This document shows positions 1 to 46,161 of a stretch of DNA of 56,891 nt, in pieces. The notes under the pieces were generated by a model, which did not search any database, was not told the origin of the DNA, and saw only the letters and a list, made by a program, of their open reading frames with translations. The DNA lies in contig JAFVEY010000077.1 in the NCBI GenBank assembly GCA_017475765.1, positions 1 through 56,891 of the forward strand, given 5' to 3'. Position numbers and translations under genes: made by a program. The stretch comes from Clostridia bacterium. GTDB lineage: Bacteria > Bacillota > Clostridia > Oscillospirales > Acutalibacteraceae. Numbering within the stretch: position 1 is the stretch's first letter; the number at the start of each line of letters is the position of its first letter.

Positions 1-1
1 C

Positions 2-94
2 AAGCAGGCAAGCGATGAGAAAATGTCCGACCTGAAGCGTATAGAGTCAAAGCGGGGAGGATATTCGAGAAGAGGAAATTCTCAGAAACAGTAA
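2..94 (+). CDS. 3' end of an unidentified gene (partial)
   Basis: An open frame enters from the left edge and ends at TAA 92-94, giving the last 30 residues of a protein. The tail is polar and basic (Lys/Arg/Ser/Gly/Gln-rich, ending NSQKQ), with no motif I recognise. A good hairpin terminator follows it directly, which supports it being a real gene end. No function can be assigned from this fragment. Confidence 0.5.
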   Translation, partial: KQASDEKMSDLKRIESKRGGYSRRGNSQKQ

Positions 95-105
95 TATCAT
101 ATTTT

Positions 106-139
106 CGGAGGGTTACTTGGTAACTCTCCGGATTTTTTT
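106..139 (+). terminator. Rho-independent terminator of the upstream gene
   Basis: An 11-bp stem (106-116 with 120-130, one G-U pair) closes a 3-nt loop and is followed by a run of seven T at 133-139. It ends the unit entering from the left and sits just before the amidohydrolase SD. Confidence 0.8.
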
Positions 140-155
140 GAAGGGAATTTTTAAT

Positions 156-1331
156 ATGTTGATTATTAACGCAAAAATTGTTACCATGGACAGGAATAAT
201 ACCGTGATTGATAACGGGTATATCAAAACGACAGACGGCAAAATCTCTGAAATTGGCAGTATGGATAAGGCAGAAGCTGCGGATGAACCGATTTTTGATG
301 TGAAGGGCGCAGGAATTTATCCCGGTTTTGTAGATGCACACACACATCTCGGAATGTTTGAAGATTCCATTACTTTTGAGGGAGATGACGGCAATGAGGA
401 TACAGACCCAATCACACCAAACCTGAGAGCAGTTGACGGAGCCAATCCTCTGGACAGATATTTTGCGGAGGCTCTTGCGGCAGGGGTGACAACGGTGCTG
501 ATAAGTCCGGGCAGTACCAATCCTATTGCAGGTGAAATTGCAGCCGTCAAAACAAAAGGAAGACGGATTGACAATATGATTATAAAAGCACCGGCGGCTA
601 TCAAAATGTCGCTGGGAGAAAATCCGAAATCCAGCTATAATGATAAAAATCAGATGCCTGTCACAAGAATGGCTATTGCAGCACTTATCAGAGAAACGCT
701 GACAAAAGCAAAAAAATATTATCAGGATCAGCAGTCATATTATAATGACAGAGTCAATGAGGTTCTGCCTGAATACGATGCCAAATATGAGTCGCTGATA
801 CCTCTTTTTAAAAAGGAAATCCCTGCCCATTTTCACGCCCACAGGGCAGATGATATTTTTACTGCTTTGCGCATTGCAAGGGAATTTGATATCGAATGTG
901 TCATTGTTCATGCAACGGATGGTCATTTAATTGTAGAGGAGCTGAAAGACGAATGTAAAGGCGTGTTATCAGGTCCCTTTATGACAGACAGAAGCAAACC
1001 GGAGCTTAAAAATCTGACATCCGCTTCCCCCGGTATCATGTCCGGCAGCAGCATACCCACAGCAATTATCACCGACCACCCCGAAACGCCGATCCAATAT
1101 CTTCCTCTTTGCGCTGCGGTTGCAGTTCGTGAGGGTATGGACGAAATACAGGCTCTCAGAGCAATTACGATCACACCAGCAGAAATTTGCGGTATAGCCG
1201 ACAGAGTCGGTTCGATTGAAATAGGGAAGGACGCTGATTTTATCGTGCTTGACGGCAGTCCCCTTGATATCACCAAAAAGCCTTCTGCCGTTTTTGTTGA
1301 CGGCATTTTAGCGGATTCAGAATTATTGTAA
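156..1331 (+). CDS. Amidohydrolase family protein (imidazolonepropionase-like)
   Basis: A 391-residue metal-dependent amidohydrolase. The N-terminal beta-sandwich (about 1-55) leads into the strand GFVDAHTHLGM with the metal-binding HxH at His62/His64. Further candidate ligands occur in PAHFHAH, in VIVHATDGH and in ITDHPETP near the C-terminus. It ends with the usual amidohydrolase tail (GSIEIGKDADFIVLDGSPLD), which returns to the sandwich domain. The family hydrolyses C-N bonds of cyclic amides, ureas or dipeptides; the substrate here cannot be told. I chose ATG 156 because AAGGGA lies 9 nt upstream; an upstream in-frame GTG at 117 would lie in the terminator hairpin. It stands alone between two terminator/promoter signals. 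Confidence 0.9.
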   Translation: MLIINAKIVTMDRNNTVIDNGYIKTTDGKISEIGSMDKAEAADEPIFDVKGAGIYPGFVDAHTHLGMFEDSITFEGDDGNEDTDPITPNLRAVDGANPLDRYFAEALAAGVTTVLISPGSTNPIAGEIAAVKTKGRRIDNMIIKAPAAIKMSLGENPKSSYNDKNQMPVTRMAIAALIRETLTKAKKYYQDQQSYYNDRVNEVLPEYDAKYESLIPLFKKEIPAHFHAHRADDIFTALRIAREFDIECVIVHATDGHLIVEELKDECKGVLSGPFMTDRSKPELKNLTSASPGIMSGSSIPTAIITDHPETPIQYLPLCAAVAVREGMDEIQALRAITITPAEICGIADRVGSIEIGKDADFIVLDGSPLDITKKPSAVFVDGILADSELL

Positions 1332-11889: not shown

Positions 11890-12969
11890 ATGACAAGGAT
11901 TGACATTTTTTCAGGCTTTCTCGGAGCAGGAAAAACGACTTTGATAAAAAAGCTCATCAAGGAAGGCTATAAGGATGAGCAGCTGGTTCTGATTGAAAAT
12001 GAGTTCGGTGAAATAGGTATAGACGGCGGCTTTCTTAAGGAAGCAGGCATACAGATCAATGAAATGAATTCGGGCTGTATTTGCTGCTCTCTTGTCGGTG
12101 ATTTCAGAGAAGCTCTCACAAAGGTGCTTGATCAGTATCATCCGGACAGAATTCTCATCGAGCCGTCCGGTGTCGGCAAACTTTCTGACGTAATCAATGC
12201 AGTAAAGACAGTTGCCAGCGATGAGGTTATTCTCAACAGCTTTATTACCGTTGCGGACGCTTCAAAGGTAAAGAGCTATATTAAAAACTTCGGCGAATTC
12301 TATAACAATCAGATAGAGTTTGCCAGCACGATTATTCTCAGCAGAACACAGAATATTTCCGATGAGAAATTGGCACAGGCTGTTGTGCTGATCAAAGAGC
12401 ATAACACAAAGGCTTCTATTGTAACAACTCCGTGGGATGAACTGACAGGCGAGCAGATACTTTCAGCAGCAGACGGCAAGGCTCTTCTGACAGTAGACGA
12501 TGTACATCCTGATGAACATGAGCATCATCATCACCATCACCACGACCACAATGAGGAGCATGAGCATCATCACCACGACCACGATGAGGAGCATGAACAT
12601 CATCACCACGACCATGATGAGGAGCATGAGCATCATCACCACGACCACGATGAGGAACACGAGCATCACCATCACCACCATCATCACCATGCCGATGAGG
12701 TATTTACAAGCTGGGGAGCCGAAACGACAAAGAAATTTACAGAAGAAGAAATAAAGAGTATTCTGGAAGCACTTGCTGACAGCGAAAAATACGGTATTGT
12801 TCTCAGAGCAAAGGGTATTGTAGCTGCTCAGAACGGAACATGGATACACTATGACTTTGTTCCGGAGGAAATAGATGTAAGAACAGGCGCAGCAGATTAT
12901 ACAGGCAGAATCTGTGTTATCGGTTCTAAACTTAATGAAGAAGAGCTTAAAAAGCTTTTCGGAATCTGA
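11890..12969 (+). CDS. COG0523 (CobW/ZNG1-type) GTPase with a His-rich metal-binding tract
   Basis: 359 residues of the G3E GTPase family. Walker A is GFLGAGKTT (9-17), the Glu-rich switch is LIENEFGEIGID, the metal motif CxCC is Cys63/65/66 (GCICCSL) and LIEPSGVGKL follows. Residues 210-267 form a His/Glu/Asp tract with 37 His in 58 residues, made of 11-residue repeats. The CobW C-terminal domain (about 275-359) comes after it. Such proteins act as zinc or cobalt metallochaperones; the His tract is typical of zinc-binding members. SD AAAGGAGAG. The second gene of the pair begins 17 nt downstream, so the two are almost certainly cotranscribed. Confidence 0.93.
   Translation: MTRIDIFSGFLGAGKTTLIKKLIKEGYKDEQLVLIENEFGEIGIDGGFLKEAGIQINEMNSGCICCSLVGDFREALTKVLDQYHPDRILIEPSGVGKLSDVINAVKTVASDEVILNSFITVADASKVKSYIKNFGEFYNNQIEFASTIILSRTQNISDEKLAQAVVLIKEHNTKASIVTTPWDELTGEQILSAADGKALLTVDDVHPDEHEHHHHHHHDHNEEHEHHHHDHDEEHEHHHHDHDEEHEHHHHDHDEEHEHHHHHHHHHADEVFTSWGAETTKKFTEEEIKSILEALADSEKYGIVLRAKGIVAAQNGTWIHYDFVPEEIDVRTGAADYTGRICVIGSKLNEEELKKLFGI
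12517..12690 (+). repeat. In-frame 33-bp tandem repeat encoding His/Glu/Asp units
   Basis: Three near-identical 33-bp units, each encoding HEHHHHDHDEE, flanked by a longer variant unit on each side. Silent changes (CAT/CAC, GAG/GAA) show that the copies are not all recent. Such tracts often change length by slippage or recombination without breaking the frame. Confidence 0.85.
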
Positions 12970-12986
12970 ACGGAGTGAAACAATCA

Positions 12987-13937
12987 ATGAAGGAGATACC
13001 GGTATATTTGTTTTTGGGCTTCTTGGACGGAGGTAAAACAAGATTTATACACGAAACTCTTTGCGACAAGCGTTTTCAGAGCGGCGAAAAAACACTCTGT
13101 ATCCTTTTTGAGGATGGAGATGAAGAGCTTGACACTTCCAAATACAGAGGCGGAAAAAATGTTACCATTATTATTGCCGATGGTAAGGAGAGCCTTACTC
13201 AGCAATTTTTGGAGGACAGCCTGAAAAACAGCGGCGCAGAAAGAGTTATGATCGAATATAACGGAATGTGGACGCTTCAGGAGCTGGCTGTGGTTCTGCC
13301 GCAGAACTGGCAGATTTATCAGATTATGATGATGGCTGATGCCAATAATTTTGAAACCTATAACAATAATATGCGTCAGCTTGTGTATGATAAAATCAAT
13401 TCAACGGAGGTCATATTCTTCAATCGCTGTAAAGCCGGTTTGGATAAAATGCCCCTCCATACGATCGTAAGGGCTATTAACCGCCGCACAGCTATCATAT
13501 ATGAATATGAGGACGGTACAGTTGAGAATGACGATATTGTTGATCCTCTCCCTTATGATTTGGACGCTCCTGTTGTCGAGATCAACGATGAAGATTTCGG
13601 ACTGCTTTATCTTGATGCTATGGATAAGCCGCAGAACTATGACGGTAAAACCATTAAATTCAAGGCGCTTACCGCAAGAAGTCCTAAGCTGCCAAAAGGC
13701 AGTTTTGTAGGGGGCAGATTTGCCATGGCTTGCTGTGCTGAAGACATACAATATGTAGGTTTTATGTGCAGATGGAAGCAGGCAGACACCGTTAAGAATA
13801 AGGGTTGGTATACAGTAACCGCCGAGGTCAGGGCTGAGCGTGACAAGCTGTTTAACGGAGAGGTCGGACCGATCCTTTATATTAAAGAAGTCAAGTCTGC
13901 AGTAAAGCCGGAAGAAGAAACGGTTTACTTTTCCTGA
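12987..13937 (+). CDS. Degenerate G3E-type GTPase fused to a YcgQ/DUF1980-like domain
   Basis: 316 residues. The N-terminal half resembles the preceding COG0523 protein: Walker A GFLDGGKTRF (11-20) and VMIEYNGMWTLQEL in place of LIEPSG. It has no CxCC metal motif. The C-terminal 110 residues (DKPQNYDGKTIKFKALTARS; FVGGRFAMACCAEDIQYVGF; GWYTVTAEV) match the C-terminal domain of YcgQ/TIGR03943 proteins, partners of YcgR-type permeases; this is family recall, not a search. I infer a metal-transport accessory protein. ATG 12987 has GGAG 11 nt upstream; GTG 12975 is an alternative. A terminator follows. Confidence 0.8.
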   Translation: MKEIPVYLFLGFLDGGKTRFIHETLCDKRFQSGEKTLCILFEDGDEELDTSKYRGGKNVTIIIADGKESLTQQFLEDSLKNSGAERVMIEYNGMWTLQELAVVLPQNWQIYQIMMMADANNFETYNNNMRQLVYDKINSTEVIFFNRCKAGLDKMPLHTIVRAINRRTAIIYEYEDGTVENDDIVDPLPYDLDAPVVEINDEDFGLLYLDAMDKPQNYDGKTIKFKALTARSPKLPKGSFVGGRFAMACCAEDIQYVGFMCRWKQADTVKNKGWYTVTAEVRAERDKLFNGEVGPILYIKEVKSAVKPEEETVYFS

Positions 13938-15228: not shown

Positions 15229-16530
15229 TTATTCTGTGTTTCCGTCTCCGAATACAAAGTTTGCTGTTTTTACTCTGAAATCATCCCAGTCAATTATAAC
15301 AATACAGCTTTGCGGCCAACCGCCTATATAAATCGGATGATCATCATCTGAGTAGTAGAAATCTACTCCGATTTTATCATATTCAGGCGCTGATGTCGAA
15401 ACAATATCATAATTAAGATACTTTGTGATATTAGTGGCAAGAGTAGTGATTTCGGAGGTTTTAAGATTAGTGGTAATCAGCGGACCTATTTCATAGATAA
15501 TAGACATGGCAGTAGAAAAATCGGAATTTTTCAATCTGTTTACAAGAAGGCTGATAACATTTCTTTGACGCTGTGTTCTTGTGTAATCGTCGCCGCTGCA
15601 GATGCCCTCTTCACCACGGTTTCTTGAATGCCAGAGAGCCTGTCTGCCGTTAAGATGAACCATTGCTACGTTTTCTCCGTCAGCATTGGGGGTGTAGGTG
15701 TAGCTTGAAGCGTCAAGTTCGTTACGTGTTTCAACCTGATGGTTTTTCCAGCACTGCCAGTCGATATAATCGACTTCTTCCTGAGTCAGCTCAATATCAA
15801 TACCGCCCAATGTGTCTATGATATTTTTAAAACTTGCAAAGTCAACAATCGCATATCTGTCTATTTGGATACCGTAATTGGATTGTATTGTATTGACAGT
15901 AAGTGCTGCTCCGCCAAGATTGAATGCAGCGGTCAGCTTATTTTCATCATATCCGGGAATGGCAACATAGGTATCACGCATAAATGAAAGCAGTTTGAGT
16001 TTTTTATGTCTTGTGTCGATGGAAAGAAGGATCATCGTGTCCGAATTGCCCCTGTCCTGATTATATCTTGTATCAGCGCCGATAATAAGAATATTGAGGA
16101 TATCAGAATCGGTCAGAAGAGTGCCGTCATACGAATTGGTGTTTTTGCTCGTATTTGTATTGCCGGAAGAGTTCTTTGAGTTTTCGTTATTATTTTGGGA
16201 GGACTCATATGATTCATAGTTGACCCTGCTGAAATAATTGTACATAACAAGGCATCCCGAACCGGATATGATCATGATAACTCCCAAAACGACAGCGCAG
16301 ATCCTGAGTGCGAGTTTTGAACCGCCTTTATTTTTATTCGCTAAAAATGTCTGCCCGGATTTCTCATAAGAGGGGATACTGCTGCTGTGATCCTTAGGCG
16401 AGTCATAAAACACAACTTCGTCTTCGGAAGCTAGTGTACTTTTAGAGGTTTTACTTTTTGGAGCTTCAGATAGATTCTTTTTGGTGCTTAACGTCTTATC
16501 GGATGTTTCATTTTTGCGTTTATCAGACAT
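15229..16530 (-). CDS. LytR-CpsA-Psr (LCP) family protein, upstream copy
   Basis: 433 residues, a paralogue of the next gene. The N-terminal cytoplasmic part (1-80) is Lys/Ser-rich, followed by a membrane helix (about 84-105) and a Ser/Asn-rich extracellular linker. The LCP domain shows ILIIGADTR, SDTMILLSIDTRHKKLKLLSFMRD, DTLGGIDIEL and the basic ALWHSRNRGE...TRTQRQRN. The inferred role is attaching wall polymers to peptidoglycan. SD AGGAGA precedes ATG 16530, and a near-consensus promoter lies about 60 nt further upstream. Confidence 0.94.
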   Translation of the reverse strand: MSDKRKNETSDKTLSTKKNLSEAPKSKTSKSTLASEDEVVFYDSPKDHSSSIPSYEKSGQTFLANKNKGGSKLALRICAVVLGVIMIISGSGCLVMYNYFSRVNYESYESSQNNNENSKNSSGNTNTSKNTNSYDGTLLTDSDILNILIIGADTRYNQDRGNSDTMILLSIDTRHKKLKLLSFMRDTYVAIPGYDENKLTAAFNLGGAALTVNTIQSNYGIQIDRYAIVDFASFKNIIDTLGGIDIELTQEEVDYIDWQCWKNHQVETRNELDASSYTYTPNADGENVAMVHLNGRQALWHSRNRGEEGICSGDDYTRTQRQRNVISLLVNRLKNSDFSTAMSIIYEIGPLITTNLKTSEITTLATNITKYLNYDIVSTSAPEYDKIGVDFYYSDDDHPIYIGGWPQSCIVIIDWDDFRVKTANFVFGDGNTE

Positions 16531-16685: not shown

Positions 16686-16799
16686 TTACAATGTTATATG
16701 TTGATCATCCAGCGAAAGATAGTAGGACGGAAGAAAGTCCTTCATAAAAATTTCAACTTCCGGCAGCTGCATTTTTTCAAGGTATTTGACAGATTCTTC
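16686..16799 (-). pseudogene. yfbR: Detached C-terminal coding remnant of yfbR, after an in-frame stop
   Basis: The same frame continues beyond the stop at 16800-16802 for 37 codons to TAA at 16686-16688. The encoded peptide includes EVEIFMKDFLPSYYLSLDD, which resembles the C-terminal end of YfbR proteins (the E. coli protein, from memory, has MDYFMEIFVPSFHLSLDE here). With it the frame totals 197 codons, against about 199 residues in E. coli. So this is part of the gene cut off by a single nonsense codon, or expressed by readthrough. Confidence 0.8.
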
Positions 16800-17279
16800 T
16801 TATGCTCTTACAAATTCATTGTTACCCATTTGTTCCTCTTCAATACATTTGATAAGTGCTGACAGCTTATCCGCAGCCTTTACAAGAGCAAGCAGCTTTG
16901 TGTCCTCGCTGCCGCAGGTAATGATTTTTTCATATTCATCACGCAGATATTCCGGCAGAGCTGACAGCAGCTGGTTTGAAGCTTCTGCCTCGATATCCGC
17001 ATACGCTTTTCTCAGCGTTTTGCTGGAATATTTTATTGGTGTGGGCAGATCTCCGGTGATGATTTCCGTACAGTCGTGATACATAGCGATGACAGCAGCT
17101 CTTTCGGGATTAATATTGCCGCCCAGTTTTTTATTATGGATCACACAAAGTGCATGAGCAATAATCGCCACAGTCAGACTGTGTTCACTTATATTTTCTA
17201 TGCGGGTGTTATTCATCAGCGACCATCGGTTGATATATTTCATTCGTGACATGATCGCAAAAAAATGGTAGTTTTCCAT
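16800..17279 (-). CDS. yfbR: YfbR-type 5'-deoxynucleotidase (HD domain), prematurely stopped
   Basis: 159 residues up to TAA 16802-16800. YfbR dephosphorylates deoxyribonucleoside 5'-monophosphates. HD-domain metal ligands can be read at His33, His68-Asp69 and Asp137, in SEHSLTVAIIAH, AMYHDCTEIITGDLPTP and VKAADKLSA. These are the positions I recall for the E. coli enzyme, so the truncated chain keeps the full active site. It stops right after GNNEFVRA, where relatives continue for about 40 more residues. ATG 17279 has the SD GAGGT. Divergent from the small Cys protein gene. See the remnant at 16686-16799. Confidence 0.88.
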   Translation of the reverse strand: MENYHFFAIMSRMKYINRWSLMNNTRIENISEHSLTVAIIAHALCVIHNKKLGGNINPERAAVIAMYHDCTEIITGDLPTPIKYSSKTLRKAYADIEAEASNQLLSALPEYLRDEYEKIITCGSEDTKLLALVKAADKLSALIKCIEEEQMGNNEFVRA

Positions 17280-17380: not shown

Positions 17381-17563
17381 GTGAGTGATTCAGCGCAATG
17401 TTTAAGCTGCGTACATTATGTTTATAATGAAGATTGGGAAGAATATGAATGTCTTGTTTCTCTGGATGAGGATGAATATGCGGCGCTTATGAGCGGCAAA
17501 TATCAGGGATGTCCGTATTTTCGCCTTGATGATGAATACGGAGTGGTCAGGAAACAAATGTAG
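17381..17563 (+). CDS. Small Cys-containing acidic protein (DUF6472-like)
   Basis: 60 residues from a GTG start with a strong SD (AAGGAGGAG, 17366-17374). Four cysteines (CLSC at 8-11, EC near 24 and GCPYF near 44) suggest a small zinc-binding fold. The pattern CxxC-x-YVYNEDWEEYEC-x-SLDEDEY-x-GCPYFRLDDEY-VRKQM is, from memory, that of a short conserved Clostridia family of unknown function (DUF6472). An in-frame upstream ATG at 17303 lies before the SD and is not used. The function is unknown. Confidence 0.75.
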   Translation: MSDSAQCLSCVHYVYNEDWEEYECLVSLDEDEYAALMSGKYQGCPYFRLDDEYGVVRKQM

Positions 17564-22358: not shown

Positions 22359-23625
22359 ATCTGTCATATTCCGTGAGCGGATCATAACGCACGCCGTTAT
22401 GGCGCATTTCAAAGTGAAGATGCGGACCTGTGGAGTAGCCTGTCGAACCGACATATCCGATGAGCTGTCCGGCAACCACCTCTTGACCAGGTACAACAGT
22501 AACACCCGACAGATGTCCGTATATTGATATCTTTCCGTCACCGTGATCAATCATAACGTAGTTGCCGTAACCGCCGCCGCAGCCGCAGCTGTAATATTTT
22601 CCGTAATCATGTGTGCAGGATTCGTTTGTTGAAAAGACTGTACCGTTCCAGCAGGCAACGACCTTTTCACCGTATATGTTGCCGTCTGCAATATCAAGTG
22701 CACCGTGATTGCTTGCACCTCTCCATTCTTCAAATAACGAGGTGAGGTATGTATGCCCCGGACAGGGCCAGACATAAGAACCGTCAGATTCCACAACGAT
22801 CTGATTATCCTCTTCGGTTAATGCCCTGTTCTGAGCTGCCTGTTCCTGCATTTTTTTGATCCTTTCAAGGCGCAGCTTTTCTGCCATTTCCTTGTTATAT
22901 TCAGCTAATGCCTTTTCAAGCTCAGCCTGACGCTCTTCGTTTTCTTTGATGGCATCTTCCGTGTCCTCTTTCGTCTTTTTAAGCTCTAGAATAATCTTTT
23001 GATTTTCTTTTGAAAGCTCATTGACGTTGGTTTTGTCTGCTTCAAGCTGCTTCTTTTCTTTTTCGATCTGTTCTTTGCTGTCCTTCAGCTTCTGCTGTTC
23101 AGCGCTGATTTCCTCCATTTCTTCCTGAAGACCTTGTATTAGGTTGTCATCATAAGCAGAAATACTCTGAACAAGCTCCATTTTATCAATGAAGTCAGAA
23201 AAATCCTTCGCCTGTAGGATGATTTCAAGAGAAGATATATCACCGGCGGTATAAATTGCCCTGAGTCGTGAGCGCAGAAGCGCCAGTCTGTCCTCAATTG
23301 CTTCGAGTTTACTGTCGATAAGGGTTTGTTTTTCGCTGATTTCATCGGTCAGCTTTTTGATATTGTCGTTGCTTGTCTGTATTTTCTTTGTAAGTTCGGT
23401 TATCTGATCCTGAAGTTCCTTGCTGTAATCCTCTTTTTCTTTGATGCTCTTATTTGTCTGTTTAAGCTCCTCCTGATATTCGGAGTTTTCCTGCTCAAGC
23501 TGCTCATGTTGACGGGAGTTTTCCTCCTTGTCAAAAGCAAACACAGTAGACATTGTCAGCATAGCTGCTGCTAAAAATGCGGATAAGGAAGTCAGAACAA
23601 TTTTTTTCTTATTTTTACCAGCCAA
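22357..23625 (-). CDS. M23 peptidase / EnvC-PcsB-like murein hydrolase
   Basis: 422 residues. A signal peptide (about 1-30) is followed by a long Glu/Lys/Gln coiled coil (about 32-265) and a C-terminal LytM/M23 domain (about 290-418). The zinc motifs HGALDIAD (HxxxD) and HLHFEMR (HxH) are both intact, so the enzyme is probably active. In relatives, FtsEX recruits and gates such coiled-coil hydrolases or activators for septal wall splitting. The start is TTG 23625, set by SD AAGGAGGAG; the first ATG would remove part of the signal peptide. It overlaps the ftsX stop by 11 nt (CTTGGCTGGTAA), so translation is coupled. The Cys-Gly-Cys-Gly-Gly-Gly loop (SCGCGGGYG) is an oddity. Confidence 0.93.
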   Translation of the reverse strand: MAGKNKKKIVLTSLSAFLAAAMLTMSTVFAFDKEENSRQHEQLEQENSEYQEELKQTNKSIKEKEDYSKELQDQITELTKKIQTSNDNIKKLTDEISEKQTLIDSKLEAIEDRLALLRSRLRAIYTAGDISSLEIILQAKDFSDFIDKMELVQSISAYDDNLIQGLQEEMEEISAEQQKLKDSKEQIEKEKKQLEADKTNVNELSKENQKIILELKKTKEDTEDAIKENEERQAELEKALAEYNKEMAEKLRLERIKKMQEQAAQNRALTEEDNQIVVESDGSYVWPCPGHTYLTSLFEEWRGASNHGALDIADGNIYGEKVVACWNGTVFSTNESCTHDYGKYYSCGCGGGYGNYVMIDHGDGKISIYGHLSGVTVVPGQEVVAGQLIGYVGSTGYSTGPHLHFEMRHNGVRYDPLTEYDR

Positions 23626-24526
23626 GAATTTCTCCTCCTTCCTTTCTGAGGTATTTGGTGATCGAGATAAATCCTCCCAAAGCTCCGATTAATATGCCGG
23701 CACCGGAAAATCCTAATAATATGAAACCCCATAACTCTTCAAGGGGAATTGTGGATTTTCCGATGAAAGAAATGACATTGGAAGCAGTTTCCCTGACAGG
23801 GTTATAAATACTGATCAGAATAATGGAGGACAAAAGACCTGCAATCAGACCGATCGTCATCGCTTCAATGATGAACGGTATCCGAACAAAGGTATTGGTA
23901 GCCCCGACGGATTTCATAATGCTTATCTCAAAGCGTCTGGAATACATTGTCATTTTGATGGTATTGGAAATGATGAAAAGAGTGACTACTCCAAGAATGA
24001 TCACCACCCAGAATCCGACGATTGTTACAAAGTAATTCAGCTTTGTCAGCGTTCTTGCAATATCCCCACGGTCGCTTACGGAAACAACACCATTTATCTT
24101 CTTGATTTGTTCAATTGTCTGTTTATATTCCGAAAGATCCTTAAGCTGTACCTTATAGGCATTTCCCAGAGGATTGTCATCCCCCTGCATACTTTCATAC
24201 AGATTTCCCAGCTTGTTTTTATATTCTTTGATAGCATCATCCTTGGAATAAAATTCGCATTCATCGACATTCGGCAGTTTTTTTATCTGACTGCCCAGCT
24301 TGATGGCATCAATATCGGACATCTCATAGTCAAGATATACATTGATCTGATTATCGTCACCAATAGATGATATCAGACTGCTGACATTTGCTGACAGAAG
24401 CATTGCTGCTCCTGTGATAATAAGGCAGGAAACTAAGACAATGATGGAAGCAAGAGACATCATACGATGATTCCATATATTTTTTAAGCCTTCCTTTATA
24501 AGATAACCGCTGCTTGAAAACTTCAT
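23615..24526 (-). CDS. ftsX: Cell division ABC transporter permease FtsX
   Basis: 303 residues with four membrane segments: about 20-45, 170-195, 215-240 and 270-292. The large extracellular loop (about 50-165) is the part that contacts the periplasmic or extracellular wall hydrolase in this family. N-terminal landmark: YLIKEGLKNIWNHRMMSLASI. SD AAGGGGG precedes ATG 24526. Encoded between ftsE and the M23 hydrolase, the classic arrangement for regulated wall hydrolysis at division or sporulation. Confidence 0.95.
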   Translation of the reverse strand: MKFSSSGYLIKEGLKNIWNHRMMSLASIIVLVSCLIITGAAMLLSANVSSLISSIGDDNQINVYLDYEMSDIDAIKLGSQIKKLPNVDECEFYSKDDAIKEYKNKLGNLYESMQGDDNPLGNAYKVQLKDLSEYKQTIEQIKKINGVVSVSDRGDIARTLTKLNYFVTIVGFWVVIILGVVTLFIISNTIKMTMYSRRFEISIMKSVGATNTFVRIPFIIEAMTIGLIAGLLSSIILISIYNPVRETASNVISFIGKSTIPLEELWGFILLGFSGAGILIGALGGFISITKYLRKEGGEILGW

Positions 24527-24540
24527 TTTTTAGCCCCCTT

Positions 24541-25260
24541 TTATTCAGAATATGACGGTTCGGAATCCGTTATATCCGCAGGATGGTATTTTGTTGGCAG
24601 TTTTTCGTCCCGTTCGATCTCTCCGCCGTTTATCATAATAATTCTTCCGCCGAATTCCTTCACAAGTTCATGCTCATGGGTAACAATAATAACTGTTGTG
24701 CCTCTTTTGTTGATTTCAACCAGCTTTTTCATGATCTCAAAGGACATTTTAGGGTCAATATTACCCGTCGGCTCATCGGCAATGATCATTTCGGGATTGT
24801 TGACAAGAGCCCTTGCAAGGCTGACTCTTTGCTGTTCACCGCCTGAAAGCTCATTCGGGCGGCATTTTTCCTTACCTTTCAGACCAACCATATCAATGAC
24901 ATACTGTACACGCTTTTTGATGGCTTTTTCAGGAGAACCGATTGCTCTCATTGCGAAAGCTATATTGTCGTAGACATTCATTTTGTCGATCAGTCTGAAA
25001 TCCTGAAAAACGATTCCCATCGTTCTGCGCAGATAGGGAATCTTACGGTTTCTGATTTTCATAAGATCATAGCCGTTTACCTTTATTTTTCCGAAGTTTG
25101 CCTTTTCCTCGTGTATCAGCAGCTTAAGAAATGTACTTTTTCCGGCACCGGAAGCGCCCACAATAAACACAAATTCGCCCTGTTCGATATCAAGGCTGAT
25201 ATTTTTCAGCGCTTCAGTTCCGTTTGAATATATCTTTGAAACATTTTTTAAATGTATCAC
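24541..25260 (-). CDS. ftsE: Cell division ATP-binding protein FtsE
   Basis: 239 residues. ABC ATPase with Walker A GASGAGKST (35-43), Q-loop GIVFQDFRL, signature LSGGEQQRVSLARAL, Walker B MIIADEPTGNID and the H-switch VIIVTHEHEL. Its ATP cycle drives FtsX and through it the M23 hydrolase. The start is GTG 25260, with AGGGATG about 10 nt upstream. It begins the three-gene operon, 14 nt before ftsX. Confidence 0.96.
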   Translation of the reverse strand: MIHLKNVSKIYSNGTEALKNISLDIEQGEFVFIVGASGAGKSTFLKLLIHEEKANFGKIKVNGYDLMKIRNRKIPYLRRTMGIVFQDFRLIDKMNVYDNIAFAMRAIGSPEKAIKKRVQYVIDMVGLKGKEKCRPNELSGGEQQRVSLARALVNNPEMIIADEPTGNIDPKMSFEIMKKLVEINKRGTTVIIVTHEHELVKEFGGRIIMINGGEIERDEKLPTKYHPADITDSEPSYSE

Positions 25261-45188: not shown

Positions 45189-45902
45189 TTATATTACCTT
45201 CATCAGAACCAAAACGAAATATACGCAGGTGATCAGGGCAATAGCGGTGAATATAAATATTCCGATGGTGGCAGCCTTGCTGTCGGATTTCTGAGTATCA
45301 CGCTTTGATATGAGTTTTGCCTTTTCAAGAACACGGATGGAGGGGTAAAGCATTACGGCAATAGAGGAATTCAGCACGCTTTTGAGCAGATTAAACGGCA
45401 GGAATGTGGGGATCAGCATCTGAGCAACCTGTTCTCTTGTTGCATTCATATACAGCGGCGTTATCAGATAATTCCAAAGAAGCATAACAGCCGTCATCGC
45501 CAGACAGCCCGCAATCAGACCGATCACGGCAGATTTAAGACCCGGCTTTTTCTTGTGAATGAACGAAGCAACGCAAACAAAGCTTGCAGAGGACAATAAG
45601 TTCATGATCATTCCGATAATGCCCGTAGAGCTGATCGTGATCATCTCAACAAGGGCAAGAACGGCAGACATCACAAATCCTGCCAGCGGTCCGAAGATAA
45701 AAGCGCCGAATACAAGTACTGCGTCCTTGAAATCCATCGTCAGAAATCCGAAAATCGGAAGCCGGAAGAAAAATACCGTCAGATAGGCGACAGCGGTGAG
45801 CATAGCAAGACCAGTAATTTTCTTGACTCTGTCGGAAGCTGACTGACGACCCTTGAGTATTGGCTTGTTTCCTGACATAACAGATGTTTCTTTTGCTTTC
45901 AT
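45189..45902 (-). CDS. ribU: Riboflavin ECF transporter S component
   Basis: 237 residues with six hydrophobic segments. The N-terminal cytoplasmic part is basic (about 1-28), followed by ITGLAMLTAVAYLTVFF and the FLTMDFKDAVLVFGAFIFGPLAGFV motif typical of riboflavin S components. It binds riboflavin with high affinity and needs an EcfAA'T module, which is not in this window. The FMN riboswitch immediately upstream strongly supports the riboflavin assignment. The SD is AAGGAGATG before ATG 45902, with rather long spacing. Confidence 0.95.
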   Translation of the reverse strand: MKAKETSVMSGNKPILKGRQSASDRVKKITGLAMLTAVAYLTVFFFRLPIFGFLTMDFKDAVLVFGAFIFGPLAGFVMSAVLALVEMITISSTGIIGMIMNLLSSASFVCVASFIHKKKPGLKSAVIGLIAGCLAMTAVMLLWNYLITPLYMNATREQVAQMLIPTFLPFNLLKSVLNSSIAVMLYPSIRVLEKAKLISKRDTQKSDSKAATIGIFIFTAIALITCVYFVLVLMKVI

Positions 45903-45981: not shown

Positions 45982-46021
45982 TAATTATATTGTTTGGTAA
46001 AACCGTATTCAATATAACTAA

Positions 46022-46142
46022 TCTTCTTTCATCCGGACTATACCGTCGGCATTGGAATCTCACCAATTCAGCTTACGCTCGCGGGCTTACCCGATACAAC
46101 AGGCACACCGCCGGTGGGGAATTGCACCCCGCCCCGAAGACA
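46022..46142 (-). ncRNA. FMN riboswitch (RFN element)
   Basis: Read on the minus strand, the RFN landmarks come in order: the CTTCGGGGC...GGGTGCAATTCCCC start, ACCGGCGGT, AGCCCGCGAGC, GGTGAGATTCCAA, GCCGACGGTATAGTCCGGATG and the closing GAAGAT. These are the conserved segments of the FMN aptamer. Confidence 0.96.
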
Positions 46143-46161
46143 GCAATTATTTTATGTTTTC

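Follow-up and report, generated by a model that had tools for sequence, protein, structure and literature searches.

A premature ochre codon in the only yfbR gene of a Clostridia draft genome: a probable early step in gene loss

Introduction

The YfbR 5′-deoxynucleotidase of Escherichia coli is known from several structures (PDB 2PAQ, 2PAR and 2PAU). As summarized in the relevant part of a review (PMC8177086), YfbR is a dimer, and substitutions of Arg18, Trp19 and Asp77, like those of the metal ligands, inactivate it. A second body of work concerns genes interrupted by a stop codon. Belinky et al. 2021 (PMC7918605) argue that in-frame stops are widespread in bacteria, mostly short-lived and may be read through; they also argue that many remain under purifying selection. 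The large-scale set described there is limited to stops that are common to orthologues.

Here we describe a yfbR gene from a stretch of 56,891 nucleotides (contig JAFVEY010000077.1 of the Clostridia bacterium assembly GCA_017475765.1), hereafter the window. The gene resembles E. coli YfbR throughout, including the part that encodes its C-terminus, and is divided by a single in-frame TAA. We ask how this stop codon is best explained, given the state of the gene in relatives and the quality of the draft sequence in which it was found.

Results

A single stop codon divides an otherwise complete yfbR frame

The gene lies on the minus strand (17279–16686). Translation yields 159 residues (16803–17279), a TAA at codon 160 of 197 (16802–16800), 37 further sense codons (codons 161–197, 16689–16799) that form an orphaned C-terminal tail, and a terminal TAA (16688–16686). 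This is the arrangement given in the initial annotation, which had also named the gene; whole-frame searches of the genome found exactly one stop within the yfbR frame. Both profile searches support the name: residues 1–159 match the Pfam family YfbR-like (PF12917) at 2.8e-69 (232.9 bits, cut-off 25.9) and the NCBIfam equivalog PRK03826 at 5.6e-65 (218.7 bits, cut-off 122), in each case above the curated threshold. The matches of the truncated frame extend to position 154 of 182 in the Pfam profile and to position 159 of 197 in the NCBIfam profile, and so fall short of a full-length fold with its C-terminal helices.

All metal ligands and substrate residues are encoded ahead of the stop. The HD ligands His33, His68, Asp69 and Asp137, which the initial annotation had placed there, are invariant in an alignment of 26 rows that includes the window, as are Arg18, Trp19 and Asp77. 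The lysine that the initial annotation placed in the E. coli protein at the position of the stop was borne out by the alignment to 2PAQ. The tail, too, is YfbR-like, as had been proposed: it aligns in frame and without net insertion or deletion to five relatives that are 75–82% identical over the frame.

The gene downstream on the same strand (15229–16530) encodes a protein of the LytR-CpsA-Psr (LCP) family (Pfam PF03816). It is a conserved neighbor of yfbR: an orthologue also stands beside the remnant of yfbR in the genome G025, which is described below.

Codon 160 is a sense codon in all other homologues

A total of 118 loci was gathered, duplicates among them, from which 105 distinct proteins remained after removal. 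In 116 of the 118 the first stop falls after residue 191–209, and the commonest end point (47 loci) is residue 197, which identifies the TAA at 16688–16686 as the ancestral terminator of the full-length gene. Among homologue rows that had been flagged as containing a stop, loci L101, L105, L106, L114, L115 and L116 are all without one before residue 191; the stops flagged in the other rows are probably natural terminators. A natural gene end at residue 159, which the initial annotation had held open as a way in which its reading might fail, was not seen in any orthologue among these loci and is rejected.

At column 160 a sense residue is present in all 104 distinct homologues other than the window, 64 of which have lysine. 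The pattern is sharper among 38 close relatives, chosen by locus as those of the same genus plus loci L031–L056, with duplicates removed: 32 have lysine, three glycine and three arginine. Judged from these alignments the stop at codon 160 is more than chance, because all 104 homologues have a sense codon there and the tail continues in frame, with no net indel, in the five relatives mentioned above.

The one other early stop is found in a Lachnospiraceae draft genome (L086, 3001–3576), where yfbR carries an in-frame TAG at residue 164, four codons beyond the position of the stop in the window and ∼120 bases from the end of its contig. Two stops so close together could weakly hint at tolerance (n = 2).

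The genus has lost yfbR repeatedly

Within the genus PF12917 was found in 50 of 64 genomes, leaving 14 without a match. Of the 50, 48 match the full profile (47 with no stop, plus the window genome), while in G473 the match is split into two pieces and in G025 it covers the end only. Three of the 64 genomes thus carry yfbR lesions, each of a different kind: the TAA of the window, a frame break in G473 and a deletion remnant in G025. In G473 (L161, 1780–2339) residues 1–83 and 110–197 are encoded in different frames, and the gene lies near the end of a contig. In G025 (L119, 4475–4731) residues 5–20 and 143–195 are in different frames and the middle is gone; this remnant directly adjoins the orthologue of the LCP gene of the window.

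Genes missing from draft genomes can be a matter of assembly gaps. Among the 26 genomes with a completeness of 90% or more and a contamination of 5% or less, six gave no yfbR match, including G017, G018 and G431 (rated 100% complete). In G017, G031 and G030, which possess the LCP orthologue, the 1.4–1.5 kb upstream of it contain no match to yfbR; G018 and G431 gave neither a yfbR nor an LCP match. The contig of G011 begins too close by for the absence of yfbR to be judged. The upstream exporter was found in two (G009 and G030) of 13 genomes examined for a missing or partial yfbR. Since the lesions differ they imply separate loss events, counted here without placement on the species tree, and on this genomic comparison the genus is one that loses yfbR repeatedly.

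The covered part of the window is otherwise sound

The most obvious alternative to a mutation is that the sequence misleads: the living population would have an uninterrupted yfbR, and the TAA would be a wrong or minority base introduced by sequencing, by assembly or by a mixture of strains. The source is a draft genome (2.32 Mb, 81 contigs) with a completeness of 95.15% and a contamination of 0.44%. The window is contig 22 of this genome, whose relatives are mostly uncultured Clostridia, several of them from rumen or other herbivore gut samples. So fragmented a draft favors an artefact, as does the fact that yfbR bears no other sign of decay. The stop in L086, likewise in a draft and close to a contig end, indicates that such calls occur in such data, whether real or not. 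Against this, the stop in the window sits in the middle of a 56.9 kb contig.

To gauge the soundness of the window as a whole, 312 open frames no shorter than 100 residues (shadow frames included) from the loci of 12 relatives were compared with it. Keeping the best-scoring frame for each stretch left 75 matches over 37,183 bases, which by manual count touch 31 window genes; about a third of the window lies outside this coverage. Only yfbR has an internal stop. The remaining 30 covered genes have none, and the assembly is therefore not generally error-ridden. Two stops at the front of the match at 23618–24658 precede the start of the window gene itself (24526) and were not taken for a lesion. 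A short match at 17450–17563 was not counted as a gene, being antisense to a small gene at about 17381–17563 on the plus strand. This small gene, which we take to be DUF6472, is divergent from yfbR, has matches in relatives and has a GTG start behind what is by eye a good Shine-Dalgarno sequence.

Two other features of the window were recorded. An FMN riboswitch (RF00050, 113.6 bits) occupies 46017–46145 on the minus strand, upstream of a minus-strand frame (45189–45902) that is presumably a flavin-related gene. On the plus strand, 11890–13937 encodes two proteins: a CobW-type GTPase that contains an extended His/Asp/Glu-rich run and, after it, a protein that matches CobW and DUF1980_C. From the sequence they look like a metal chaperone pair.

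Given the mid-contig site, the soundness of the neighboring genes and the proneness of yfbR to loss in the genus, we regard an artefact as unlikely, while still a contender to be taken seriously: in this draft sequence a base-call error or a mixture of strains would look the same as a young mutation.

The lesion is young if the gene is no longer under selection

Seventy residues do not vary among the 38 close relatives, and the window copy retains every one of them; 62 precede the stop and eight follow it. We used a simple neutral simulation to obtain the chance of such retention had the whole gene been relaxed. For a divergence of 1% the probability of keeping 70 of 70 is 0.20; it falls to 0.038 for 2% and to 0.010 for 3%. 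Hence, if the whole gene is relaxed, the lesion is young. The eight tail residues alone say little, because the probability of keeping them is still 0.40 at 5% divergence. Taken at face value, such complete conservation would point to a very young lesion, to an assembly or strain artefact, or to a tail that continues to be produced in small amounts.

Comparison of nonsynonymous differences between tail and head gave a mixed picture. Of 741 pairs one was dropped, its head difference being under the cut-off; the median tail/head ratio was 1.52 for the 38 pairs that include the window and 1.68 for the 702 that do not. For close pairs (head pN 0.03–0.13) the order is reversed: 2.58 with the window (8 pairs) versus 1.94 without (97 pairs, upper quartile 2.24). 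This higher ratio does not signify decay on the branch of the window, because a relative-rate check shows no excess in the tail: measured to 30 outgroup rows, its mean distance is 0.414, and those of eight near relatives span 0.377–0.498. The tail taken alone accordingly allows no conclusion on faster evolution in the window. At synonymous sites the head is close to saturation against nine relatives (differences of 0.73–0.84). The nearest relative compared is therefore distant, and the stop could be confined to the level of the strain.

The truncated product is probably impaired

From the comparison of homologues the tail is normally under selection, since the 116 other loci run past residue 191 and eight of its residues are invariant in the 38 relatives. 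What its loss might mean for the protein was approached with AlphaFold models. That of an intact relative (L031) has a mean pLDDT of 83.2 and matches 2PAQ with a target-normalized TM of 0.94 at 1.5 Å; its tail is modeled as helices at 156–168, 173–181, 183–187 and 190–196. The model of residues 1–159 of the window has a mean pLDDT of 76.1. Over residues 1–30 the block means of confidence are 83/62/50 in L031 versus 48/45/39 in the 159-residue form, a drop that is no clean test of the tail, as the models are of two different proteins (window 1–159 and full-length L031). The rmsd to E. coli YfbR is 1.5 for L031 versus about 8 for the 159-residue form, the core of which can nevertheless be superposed on the HD enzyme OxsA with an rmsd of 2.1 across 131 columns.

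The models suggest that the absent tail normally lends stability to the N-terminal part, which carries substrate residues, and that the core would still fold. We infer, as something suggestive only, an impaired but not necessarily inactive truncated protein, because its core still matches OxsA.

These results bear on the proposal that the truncation is tolerated, that is, that a 159-residue protein in which all metal ligands and substrate residues are present retains its deoxynucleotidase function. In its favor are the seven metal-ligand and substrate residues that precede the stop (H33, H68, D69, D137, R18, W19 and D77), the head in which 62 of 62 invariant residues are kept, the HD fold predicted for the core, and the occurrence of a second premature stop, four codons on, in the unrelated draft genome of L086. 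Set against these are the continuation of the other 116 loci past residue 191, the invariance of the eight tail residues in close relatives and the loss, in the truncated model, of the placement of the N-terminus. On balance we consider a working 159-residue enzyme improbable.

Marks of readthrough are lacking

Ribosomes might sometimes pass the TAA and thereby produce small amounts of the full-length enzyme, with the stop serving as a brake on expression. That the tail is still in frame, with no excess of change on the branch of the window, speaks for this, as does the argument of Belinky et al. 2021 (PMC7918605) that purifying selection still acts on many bacterial in-frame stops and that these may be read through. 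The conservation is just as well accounted for by a young lesion, and two marks by which readthrough might be recognized, conservation of the stop position and a suppressor tRNA, were not found. The stop is common to none of the 104 other homologues. As to tRNAs, the genome yields 41 hits to RF00005, and ARAGORN assigned anticodons to 40 of them; among these 40, a set that may be incomplete in a draft genome, there is no ochre suppressor (anticodon UUA). The hit that ARAGORN left unnamed has CAU in its anticodon loop, as read from the Rfam alignment. A tRNA-Leu labeled ‘taa’ reads UUA codons, not UAA.

The hit without an ARAGORN call (L171, 41–111, minus strand) is an odd tRNA-like element that scores 38.3 bits against RF00005 and has a poorly paired anticodon stem.

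TAA ends 25 of 35 hand-picked window genes, and is also yfbR's own terminator. It is a working terminator in this genome, and a genome-wide reassignment of TAA is ruled out by the same counts. Translation of the tail by restart finds little encouragement: there are in-frame ATG codons in the tail, none with a clear Shine-Dalgarno sequence ahead of it by eye. We hold occasional readthrough to be very improbable. Slimmer still are the prospects of a compound version, in which the TAA is a reversible brake, low-level readthrough still yields some full-length YfbR, the tail remains under selection, and the codon toggles within the species in the course of a recurrent tuning and loss of dNMP dephosphorylation in these gut Clostridia.

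Discussion

The reading that we favor, with a probability of roughly 0.6, is that a recent nonsense mutation truncates the only yfbR of the genome and marks an early step in the loss of a dispensable gene. The mutation, either fixed or the allele of one strain picked by the assembly, would cut YfbR at residue 159. Translation would end at the TAA, giving a product without the C-terminal helices that help to position the N-terminal segment bearing Arg18 and Trp19, and thus one that is presumably weakly active or inactive. The cell would tolerate this loss if dNMP dephosphorylation by YfbR is dispensable in the genus. The window copy would then represent an early stage of the process behind the frame break in G473, the two-piece remnant in G025 and the lack of a detectable gene in 14 genomes.

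Two observations are those expected of a young pseudogene: the stop is absent from 104 of 104 orthologues, and yfbR gives a single match with no intact second copy in the 95% complete draft. A consideration that tells against a young mutation as the sole account is that an artefact or rare readthrough would likewise leave head and tail fully conserved. The initial annotation left four explanations side by side. Frequent loss within the genus and the conservation of 70 of 70 residues now allow them to be ordered: a young nonsense mutation stands first and an error of sequence or assembly second, while tolerated truncation and readthrough fall well behind. The case is most likely one of ordinary gene decay, not of a new mechanism.

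Its value is twofold. It offers a small, tidy case of a gene at the start of decay, with a single lesion, no other damage observed and sister species that have lost the gene in other ways. It also serves as a warning that a conserved tail behind a stop codon does not by itself show readthrough.

Among described systems the closest is E. coli YfbR (2PAQ, 2PAR, 2PAU). The head of the window protein aligns to it over residues 1–158 (E = 2.7e-49), with identical metal ligands and identical Arg18, Trp19 and Asp77; the difference lies at the C-terminus, where the window copy ends with residue 159 and the alignment of the E. coli protein to L031 extends through the tail. As a lesion, the stop is like those of single-nonsense bacterial pseudogenes and like the stops of Belinky et al. 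2021 (PMC7918605): one in-frame stop in a gene that is otherwise conserved, and apparently short-lived. It is unlike the large-scale set described there in being common to no relative compared, and so lies outside that set. Nearest in kind are the ruins of yfbR in G025 and G473, where the frame of the same gene is broken, in G025 beside the same LCP neighbor; there, however, the damage consists of deletions or frame breaks, whereas in the window it is a nonsense codon.
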